From Bacteroidota bacterium (GTDB taxonomy: Bacteria; Bacteroidota; Bacteroidia; Chitinophagales; Chitinophagaceae), in contig VGGV01000005.1 in assembly GCA_016868455.1 (NCBI GenBank), forward strand, positions 1 to 64,000: DNA of 64,000 nt, in the 5' to 3' direction. Positions 1-39,384 of the stretch are shown here, in pieces. The notes below the pieces were generated by a model, which saw nothing but the letters and a program-made list of their open reading frames with translations, was not told where the DNA came from and made no database searches. The translations under genes were made by a program, and so were the position numbers. Numbering within the stretch: position 1 is the first letter of the stretch; each line of letters opens with the position of its first letter.

Positions 1-31
1 AAGGTCACCGGTTCGACTCCGGTAACCTCCA
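1..31 (+). tRNA. 3' end of a tRNA or tRNA-like segment, cut by the window edge
   Basis: The bases read as variable loop AGGTC, a 5-bp T stem (ACCGG/CCGGT) closing the 7-base loop TTCGACT, an acceptor 3' strand AACCTCC and discriminator A. The following CA could be the start of an encoded CCA but the third base is not A-terminated CCA in register. The 5' half lies outside the window, so I cannot say whether this belongs to an intact tRNA or to another truncated copy. The amino acid identity cannot be read. Confidence 0.5.
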
Positions 32-34
32 CAT

Positions 35-60
35 TAAGGTTTTTATTCAGGAACCTTTTT
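35..60 (+). terminator. Short hairpin with T run between tRNA tail and GIY-YIG gene
   Basis: AAGGTT and AACCTT form a 6-bp stem around a ten-base loop, followed directly by Ts and then the ATG at 62. The same hairpin recurs at 369-394. It could be the tRNA's own intrinsic terminator, in which case the GIY-YIG gene is normally insulated from tRNA transcription. Confidence 0.4.
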
Positions 61-61
61 T

Positions 62-313
62 ATGCCTTTTACTGTTTATATCATTTATTCAGCGTCTGCC
101 GACGAATACTATATCGGATATACGGAAAATCTTGAAGAAAGATTGTATCGCCATAATAATTCAGGCAGCAAGGCCACCAAAAAAGCGAATGACTGGCGGG
201 TAGTATATACAGAGACATTTGAATTAAAATCAGCAGTTGTAATAAGGGAGTATGAGATAAAGAAAAAGAAAAGCAGGAAATATATTGAATGGCTGATTCA
301 TGGAGCTGGTTAG
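62..313 (+). CDS. Small GIY-YIG family endonuclease, copy 1
   Basis: An 83-residue single-domain protein of the compact GIY-YIG/UvrC-N type that is common in Bacteroidota. VYIIYS near residue 5 stands for the GIY strand and YYIG near residue 17 for the YIG strand. Further family marks are the conserved Arg in LEERLYRHN, and the Glu-bearing helix IREYEIKKKKSR near the C terminus, which supplies the metal-binding Glu and the basic tail. The family cleaves DNA with one metal ion, but the cellular role of these small stand-alone members is not established. The stop codon TAG lies inside GGTTAGAGC, the D-arm consensus of the adjacent tRNA-like segment, so the gene and the tRNA piece overlap. The product is identical to that of copy 2. 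Confidence 0.85.
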   Translation: MPFTVYIIYSASADEYYIGYTENLEERLYRHNNSGSKATKKANDWRVVYTETFELKSAVVIREYEIKKKKSRKYIEWLIHGAG

Positions 314-365
314 AGCGTCCCGCAGGAGTGCGGGAAGGTCACCGGTTCGACTCCGGTAACCTCCA
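301..365 (+). other. tRNA-like 3' segment lacking the acceptor 5' strand and D-stem 5' half
   Basis: The segment begins within AGCTGGTTAGAGC (D-loop and D-stem 3' side), then has an arm TCCCGC/GCGGGA around AGGAGT, variable loop AGGTC, a canonical T arm and acceptor 3' strand AACCTCC with discriminator A. It is 65 bases long, about ten short of a tRNA. The arm at the anticodon position does not give a normal 5-bp stem with a 7-base loop: it reads as a 6-bp stem with 6-base loop, or a 5-bp stem with 8-base loop, and has no U at position 33. A working tRNA is therefore unlikely. The same segment recurs at 635-699. Confidence 0.6.
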
Positions 366-395
366 CATTAAGGTTTTTATTCAGGAACCTTTTTT

Positions 396-647
396 ATGCC
401 TTTTACTGTTTATATCATTTATTCAGCGTCTGCCGACGAATACTATATCGGATATACGGAAAATCTTGAAGAAAGATTGTATCGCCATAATAATTCAGGC
501 AGCAAGGCCACCAAAAAAGCGAATGACTGGCGGGTAGTATATACAGAGACATTTGAATTAAAATCAGCAGTTGTAATAAGGGAGTATGAGATAAAGAAAA
601 AGAAAAGCAGGAAATATATTGAATGGCTGATTCATGGAGCTGGTTAG
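396..647 (+). CDS. Small GIY-YIG family endonuclease, copy 2
   Basis: The second unit of the tandem repeat encodes the same 83 residues as the copy starting at 62, with the same upstream hairpin and the same stop codon supplied by the D-arm of the next tRNA-like segment. The complete identity of coding and non-coding parts says that the duplication is recent or kept uniform by recombination. No promoter of the TAnnTTTG type is visible between the hairpin and the ATG, so expression may rely on read-through from an upstream tRNA. Confidence 0.85.
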   Translation: MPFTVYIIYSASADEYYIGYTENLEERLYRHNNSGSKATKKANDWRVVYTETFELKSAVVIREYEIKKKKSRKYIEWLIHGAG

Positions 648-699
648 AGCGTCCCGCAGGAGTGCGGGAAGGTCACCGGTTCGACTCCGGTAACCTCCA
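635..699 (+). other. Second tRNA-like 3' segment
   Basis: This copy has the same 65 bases as the segment at 301-365. It forms the right boundary of the tandem array: after the acceptor end the sequence no longer follows the repeat and instead enters the MITE-like element at 705. Confidence 0.6.
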
Positions 700-704
700 C
701 AAGA

Positions 705-13198: not shown

Positions 13199-13320
13199 TC
13201 CGCCAGCCGGCGGAATGGTTAAAAAATCATCCCATTGGACAATCCCGGCGTAGCAGCCGGAAAAGAATCCCACGACCAGCAGGATTTGGGTTTACCCGCT
13301 AAAGCTTTAGCGAAAGCGGG
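13199..13320. repeat. Two palindromes and a hairpin upstream of rpsF
   Basis: TCCGCCAGCCGGCGGA (13199-13214) is palindromic around AGCC. CGCTAAAGCTTTAGCG (13297-13312) is a perfect 16-bp palindrome embedded in CCCGCTAA...AGCGGG. Between them the minus strand can form CCGGC/GCCGG around a short loop near 13245-13260. The outer two look like dispersed repeats; the middle hairpin could be a ribosomal-protein leader element. Confidence 0.55.
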
Positions 13321-39366: not shown

Positions 39367-39384
39367 TCCCGAAAGCTTTCGGGA
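39367..39384. repeat. 18-bp perfect palindrome upstream of fabD
   Basis: TCCCGAAAGCTTTCGGGA is its own reverse complement. It lies 33 bp before the fabD ATG and resembles the AAAGCTTT-centred palindrome at 13297. Confidence 0.7.

Follow-up and report, generated by a model that had tools for sequence, protein, structure and literature searches.

Small GIY-YIG nuclease genes lodged in tRNA genes of Bacteroidota are probably isotype-specific homing-type selfish elements

The window analysed here is a stretch of 64,000 nucleotides from a genome of the Chitinophagaceae (Bacteroidota), and its position 1 is the end of a contig (VGGV01000005.1, here C5) that lies inside a repeat. At this left edge two direct copies of a unit follow each other at a spacing of 334 bp and are 100% identical over a 300-nt reference, which bears out the mismatch-free tandem unit described in the initial annotation. 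The order within the unit is a tRNA-Ala 3' part, a hairpin with a T-run, an 83-aa GIY-YIG ORF and the next tRNA 3' part. The features are as follows.

1..32, plus strand: 3' part of tRNA-Ala(GGC), positions 44-75 of the intact tRNA, whose 5' part is on contig C21 (from the 127-bp overlap of C21 and window)
36..61, plus strand: tRNA terminator hairpin with T-run, copy 1 (from the sequence; same junction on C21)
62..313, plus strand: 83-aa GIY-YIG nuclease ORF, copy 1, with its TAG in the D-arm (PF01541)
304..366, plus strand: tRNA-Ala remnant 1, D-loop to acceptor 3' end, anticodon arm replaced
318..335, no strand: palindrome TCCCG..CGGGA instead of the anticodon arm (four other Ala loci have theirs at this site too)
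370..395, plus strand: terminator hairpin with T-run, copy 2
396..647, plus strand: 83-aa GIY-YIG nuclease ORF, copy 2, identical to copy 1
638..700, plus strand: tRNA-Ala remnant 2 (last unit), without the unit's terminator after it
652..669, no strand: palindrome TCCCG..CGGGA, copy 2

The identical ORFs match the Pfam family GIY-YIG (PF01541) with an E value of 6.7e-16, and in an alignment of 13 sequences the residues Y6, Y17, G19, R27, H31, T39, E63 and K67 are invariant. With 83 aa, this is the longest ORF of the 334-bp unit and its sole convincing gene; an integrase is not among its ORFs. Upstream, the end of the T-run abuts the ATG of the ORF, and the junction is identical on C21. Downstream, both TAG stops (311-313 and 645-647) are inside the D-arm sequence GGTTAGAGC, as had been annotated initially, and in the Ala clade six of the seven unbroken ORFs end at the D-arm TAG, the seventh at a TAA in the same place. 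The nuclease ORF of one Ala carrier, G358, is broken by a stop.

The remnant tRNA tails start in the D-loop, and their anticodon arm is swapped for an 18-nt palindrome, TCCCGCAGGAGTGCGGGA, which the initial annotation had missed. Because the palindrome replaces the anticodon arm, we infer that the remnants cannot be parts of a working tRNA. The tandem tRNA 3' parts reported before are therefore present, but they are not faithful copies. ARAGORN predicted zero tRNAs in the window, and Rfam gave no match at gathering scores within it. A third tRNA tail, at 669-706, has 95% identity over 38 nt. Directly after the last remnant, at 705-836, are two 18-nt inverted repeat arms that are 94% complementary and 96 nt apart; a mobile element at this place was rejected, since the structure occurs as a single copy in the genome.

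An intact tRNA left of position 1, the search for which had been proposed as a check, was indeed found. The end of contig C21 carries an intact tRNA-Ala(GGC) with the same 3' part, followed by the same terminator and by the first 22 codons of the ORF. The ends of C21 and C5 overlap by exactly 127 bp, which would be what the k-mer of an assembler leaves. This exact overlap makes it likely that the intact tRNA-Ala and its terminator are followed by a nuclease gene and a remnant and then by a second terminator, nuclease gene and remnant, which amounts to two units or more. Further upstream on C21 (G000:C21:36595-38160, locus L003) there is a decayed second tRNA-Ala with palindromes in the D-loop and at the anticodon arm.

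A search with the protein covered 58 genomes of the genus and the order, of which 36 had a match, at 97 places; 94 of these were taken as places in the census. The relatives are mostly 78-114 aa long. An intact tRNA predicted by ARAGORN lies within 400 bp of 63 of the 94 places, and the nearest one is on the same strand in all 63. It is upstream in 46 (within 60 bp in 41) and downstream in 17 (within 35 bp in 13). With about 45 tRNA genes in a genome of 3 Mb, proximity by chance would be expected at about 2%. A scan of named genomes with the Met clade, run as a prediction, gave 79 loci, five of them already in the census. In 54 of the 74 new loci the nearest tRNA within 400 bp has a CAT anticodon, always on the same strand; two loci are beside tRNA-Asn, one is beside a tRNA of undetermined type and 17 are without a tRNA. 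With 63 of 94 census places next to an intact tRNA and 54 of 74 new Met-scan loci next to one with a CAT anticodon, the preference of such GIY-YIG ORFs for tRNA genes, on which the initial annotation had wanted its model checked, is strong.

Apart from Bacteroidota, the record titles of the Met scan name Ignavibacteria, Balneolia, Cloacimonadota and Marinimicrobia; the locus from Marinimicrobia is without a tRNA, the two Asn-adjacent loci are from Cloacimonadota, and three loci are near-identical copies in one Niabella assembly. No plasmid match was found, one scan of viral sequences with the Met clade gave no relative, and the matches in phages, in 12 records, were weak, with identities of 32-41%. 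On these grounds phages and plasmids were rejected as vehicles of spread. Small GIY-YIG genes with 32-37% identity are present in a Rhizobium phage (MN988525.1:107593-107829) and its relatives, which are large phages.

The loci contain pieces of their own tRNA. They were counted at 141 loci with an intact tRNA after removal of duplicates (five loci are shared by census and Met scan); with duplicates kept, the picture is the same. In the commoner layout A (120 loci) the tRNA precedes the nuclease gene, and in layout B (21 loci), its mirror image, the nuclease gene precedes the tRNA. A 3' piece of the same tRNA is downstream in 80 of 115 loci of layout A and a 5' piece upstream in 21 of 114; for layout B the counts are 11 of 19 loci with a 5' piece upstream and 2 of 21 with a 3' piece downstream. 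The control with the tRNA ends of another isotype gave 0, 1/114, 0 and 0 for these four classes, and shuffled tRNAs gave 0 throughout.

Inspection of the palindromes in the remnants, for which 276 palindrome rows (terminators and ordinary tRNA arms included) were filtered by palindrome family and break points were counted from the first anticodon base, revealed that the break points are largely isotype-specific. Break points of -8/+10, with which the palindrome takes the place of the entire anticodon arm, are those of four Ala loci and of at least one locus each of Arg-TCT, Pro and Val. The Met break points are +3/+14: among 42 Met-scan loci, counted without duplicates, whose left flank was matched, the left one is at +3 in 39 and the right one at +14 in 38. 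Two Asp loci and one Gly locus have +15/+24, five Leu-CAA or -CAG loci -21/-20, and one Arg-TCT locus of layout B -13/-12. Exceptions are three Met loci of Ignavibacteria (-14/0), L041 (-22/-14), one Asp locus (+5/+17) and extra palindromes in the D and T regions. The joint of ORF and tRNA, originally placed at the D-loop, is correctly located to the D-arm region in the Ala clade, but the disrupted site marked by the palindrome is the anticodon arm there and other isotype-specific sites elsewhere.

The palindrome family tends to pair with the nuclease clade: TCCG-type palindromes are found with Met, CCTGCCT with Leu and with Arg of layout B, and TCCCG with Ala and Val. Arg-TCT loci show both pairings: L016, whose nuclease is Val-like, has TCCCG, and L047, whose nuclease is Leu-like, has CCTGCCT. 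Palindromes are also dispersed, in the window as TCCCGAAAGCTTTCGGGA at 39367-39384 and TCCGCCAGCCGGCGGA at 13199-13214. The genome has 96 TCCCG(4-14)CGGGA places versus 27 of a control pattern, and 28 of the CCTGCCT type versus 0. Three small genomes of the same genus (G007, G014, G024) have 48-57 TCCCG palindromes versus 7-9 of the control and neither a GIY-YIG nor a Y1 transposase match. The idea that the palindromes are products of Y1 transposases or of the nuclease alone was rejected, since TCCCG is abundant in these three genomes with neither.

When the isotype of the adjacent tRNA is mapped on a tree of 83 proteins, it switches 24 times, compared to a mean of 40.8 and a minimum of 34 in 500 shufflings (n = 55, 15 isotypes), whereas the host genome changes 42 times versus 43.1 in shufflings. 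After addition of 42 proteins from a sample of the phylum the isotype changes 33 times versus 62.6, with a minimum of 55 (n = 82). The nuclease phylogeny tracks tRNA isotype rather than host. The trees have few columns and many weak forks; they include neither proteins below 60 aa nor one large fused protein, and the two identical window copies are represented once. Asp, Phe, Leu, Arg and Pro are each found at more than one place on the tree. Isotype fidelity could partly reflect vertical inheritance together with the tRNA locus.

Alleles without the element are present in relatives. For carrier G225, the gene next to its tRNA-Met site could be located in 58 of 61 genomes of the genus, and the sequence was read at 30 loci. 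Apart from G225 itself, 28 of 29 have the same tRNA-Met and no nuclease in the stretch read (tblastn), and at one the contig ends before. For the tRNA-Ala locus of the same genus 18 loci were read and eight have a tRNA-Ala, three of them being carriers (G300, G358, G405) and five empty. The intact tRNA of the carrier is identical to that of the empty allele in G225 (its closest empty siblings), G300 (G401 and G078) and G405 (G277); the tRNA of G358 differs from the five empty alleles read. Insertion at the target locus together with empty alleles in relatives was found in this one genus, for two tRNA loci.

By eye, the terminator past the last remnant of G300 and of G358 looks like that of empty relatives (G277; G401, G391, G078), and the intact tRNA of the Ala carriers is followed by a different terminator that looks alike among the carriers. 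In G300, G358 and G405 the native promoter region is followed by a dead palindrome copy and then by the intact tRNA: alignment to the region before the tRNA of empty alleles gave scores of 29 to 45.5 for the first dead copy and 0 to 6 for the intact copy, with masked G356 and the second copy of G401 left out. The empty alleles and the native terminators past the last remnant in two of three carriers support the earlier proposal that the element inserts in a tRNA gene while a working tRNA is kept. In G401 an otherwise empty tRNA-Ala locus (L275) retains 17 nt of a tRNA after the native promoter, probably as the scar of a lost element.

Neighbouring nuclease copies at a spacing of 311-416 bp were found in several genomes of the phylum sample, including some listed as a single contig; the arrays in these are five copies at 315 bp with tRNA-Asp (G349), five copies at about 365 bp with tRNA-Met (G225) and pairs (G243). 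Five Met-clade pairs (7 sequences) gave dN/dS values of 0.08-0.19. The distance between the end of the terminator's T-run and the start of the ORF is at most 12 nt in 32 of 46 Met loci and, therefore, the nuclease is probably made mainly from read-through. Four nucleases of the Asn clade (L018, L023, L024, L054) have a C-terminal tail, LAQLVRVPHVRD or LAQLVRVPFERD, that is read from the tRNA-Asn remnant and the palindrome. In such clades the C terminus of the protein is encoded by tRNA debris that annotation would take for genuine protein and that would mislead it.

Altogether, these data make it probable, with good though not full confidence, that the unit is an isotype-specific GIY-YIG selfish element of the homing type that splits a tRNA gene and keeps one functional copy; its cutting activity is presumed. 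According to this model the 83-aa nuclease, which belongs to a clade tied to tRNA-Ala, would have entered a tRNA gene in such a way that a complete tRNA and the element's own terminator precede the nuclease gene. The displaced 3' part would be the dead remnant behind the nuclease gene, with the palindrome at an isotype-specific site. In DNA without the element, the nuclease is supposed to cut the intact tRNA gene at the position that the palindrome occupies in remnants, or close to it. Repair by recombination across the tRNA halves would then copy the element in, and the palindrome would shield the remnant against renewed cutting. Units may be added or removed when tRNA 3' parts recombine with each other, which would explain both the arrays and scars such as that in G401. 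The nuclease would be made weakly, by read-through of the tRNA terminator, and such weak expression may let the host tolerate an uncut site.

Some observations count against a homing-type element. No intact tRNA is nearby at 31 of the 94 census places, seven of which are at contig ends and 12 in one clade (this unlinked clade has 0/12 members with a tRNA association). Neither piece of the own tRNA is present in 29 of 109 loci of layout A with both flanks readable. G405 and G225 have more element-like sequence after the last remnant, with no native terminator recognised there. A recoded rescue tRNA was rejected for G225, G300 and G405, where the tRNA equals the empty allele. The genes that flank 40 Met loci fall into 16 clusters upstream and 26 downstream, but if loci are joined by either flank, nine clusters result, the largest with 31 of the 40; the context is diverse but partly shared.

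It is tempting to speculate that the homing-type element is at the same time a drive on essential tRNA genes that combines nuclease and rescue, in which a minimal isotype-specific GIY-YIG nuclease, a cognate palindrome at the cut site of dead copies and one working tRNA, carried or rebuilt, act together. This extension is possible, but we hold it only tentatively and would sooner bet against it. Its basis is the arrangement in G300, G358 and G405, in which the native promoter leads into a copy killed by the palindrome and the working tRNA of the locus is inside the element. If true, the element would invade an essential gene at little cost.

Other explanations have to be weighed. The dispersed palindromes could mean a REP-like system in which the palindrome is the mobile unit, the GIY-YIG protein the mobilising enzyme and the tRNA loci are landing sites, as RAYT transposases are thought to mobilise REPs. 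The pairing of palindrome family and nuclease clade fits this, and in genome-wide counts that ignore phylogeny and genome size genomes that have the Met clade are richer in TCCGCC (p = 6e-5) and those that have the Leu/Arg-B clade are richer in CCTGCCT (p = 1.5e-4), the crossed comparisons giving p = 0.10 and 0.07; the clade sets were assigned by us from the 83-protein tree. However, the association fades within the own genus (p = 0.05 and 0.08), the counts also rise with genome size and total GIY-YIG number, and TCCCG is abundant in the three genomes without a GIY-YIG match, so that we regard a REP-like system as unlikely. Quite improbable, in our judgement, is an anticodon nuclease or toxin that acts isotype-specifically on the tRNA itself, with the altered remnant as immune decoy or antitoxin RNA. 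The isotype-wise clades and the replacement of the whole anticodon arm in Ala, Val, Arg and Pro remnants would be expected from it, but elsewhere the palindromes are 15-24 nt past the anticodon (two Asp loci, one Gly locus) or 12-21 nt before it (Leu and layout-B Arg remnants). Moreover, the gene is within the tRNA locus itself and native-like terminators are displaced in two carriers; a toxin needs neither. GIY-YIG enzymes are known mainly as DNA nucleases, which also argues against an action on RNA.

That the two identical window units are an assembly artefact, as could be suspected from a window that starts at a contig end within a repeat and from contigs joined by a 127-bp overlap, is very unlikely: both units are internal to C5, the last is joined to a flank that is single-copy in the genome, and arrays of the same plan, with two to five units, occur in one-contig genomes. 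tRNA repeats recombine easily, and a housekeeping GIY-YIG gene might have been caught as a passive passenger between tRNA copies duplicated by recombination. The identity of the window units and the partly shared neighbours of the Met loci would agree with such a passenger, but fifteen isotypes with mostly isotype-wise clades, the many upstream and downstream gene clusters of the 40 Met loci, the empty alleles and the lack of association with tRNAs in the clade of 12 to which the best UPF0213 match belongs make it hardly credible.

The homing-type reading, which we prefer, suggests an undescribed family of selfish genes that live in essential genes in many Bacteroidota. If it is true, tRNA genes of 15 isotypes, in Bacteroidota and in some neighbouring phyla, have been invaded by elements of a few hundred bases that consist of one nuclease (about 80-110 aa) and a portion of a tRNA. 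Few selfish elements that code for a protein would probably be smaller. Such elements would give rise to duplicated tRNAs and to pseudo-tRNAs, and they would provide a collection of small nucleases for which isotype-specific sites are predicted. They would also be a bacterial case of a selfish gene that exploits an essential gene by keeping it whole.

Among the matches listed in a search of the open-licence literature we found no description of chromosomal tRNA-linked GIY-YIG genes in Bacteroidota, and the passages searched of PMC1564403 and PMC12306157 make no link of tRNA with chromosomal GIY-YIG genes. The best solved relatives of the window protein are 1zg2 (E 5.5e-6) and 1ywl (E 1.2e-4), and it is similar in size and domain to the small GIY-YIG proteins of the UPF0213 type. 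The closest UPF0213 match among those tried, L097 (1zg2, E 2.1e-15), belongs to the unlinked clade of 12 members, whereas the tRNA-linked proteins are in other clades than L097. The label UPF0213-like for this whole clade was withdrawn, since its member L095 matches 1zg2 at 4.7e-4 only (window protein 5.5e-6; the tree forks are weak).

REP elements, which go with RAYT transposases, are dispersed short palindromes. The present system shares with them the dispersed short palindromes and a possible pairing of palindrome family with protein clade, but the locus is without a Y1 transposase: PF01797 has no match on C5 or C21, and the five matches of the genome are on C10, C19 (two), C37 and C43. tRNA islands of tyrosine recombinases also insert in a tRNA gene and keep a working tRNA, as the elements described here do; however, the 334-bp unit is too small for an integrase and its remnant is broken by the palindrome. 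In contrast to cleave-and-rescue drives with their recoded rescue copy, the tRNA of G225, G300 and G405 is that of the empty allele. With free-standing GIY-YIG homing endonucleases the elements share the GIY-YIG domain with conserved motif residues, the position at the target locus, empty alleles in relatives and a phylogeny that follows the target over the host.

The closest known system is SegB of phages. According to PMC13096335, SegB of phages T4 and T6, a homing endonuclease of the free-standing GIY-YIG kind, has its cleavage sites in tRNA genes. A tRNA-bearing segment depends on it for tandem amplification, by recombination, and it is enriched near phage tRNAs with no isotype preference; how it avoids cutting itself is termed an open question there. 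Both systems have a stand-alone GIY-YIG gene that adjoins tRNA genes, with tandem amplification. Unlike SegB as portrayed there, the present elements are chromosomal, occur in Bacteroidota and some neighbouring phyla, code mostly for 78-114 aa, form clades that are mostly tied to one isotype and carry remnants of their own tRNA with a palindrome at a fixed site of the remnant.
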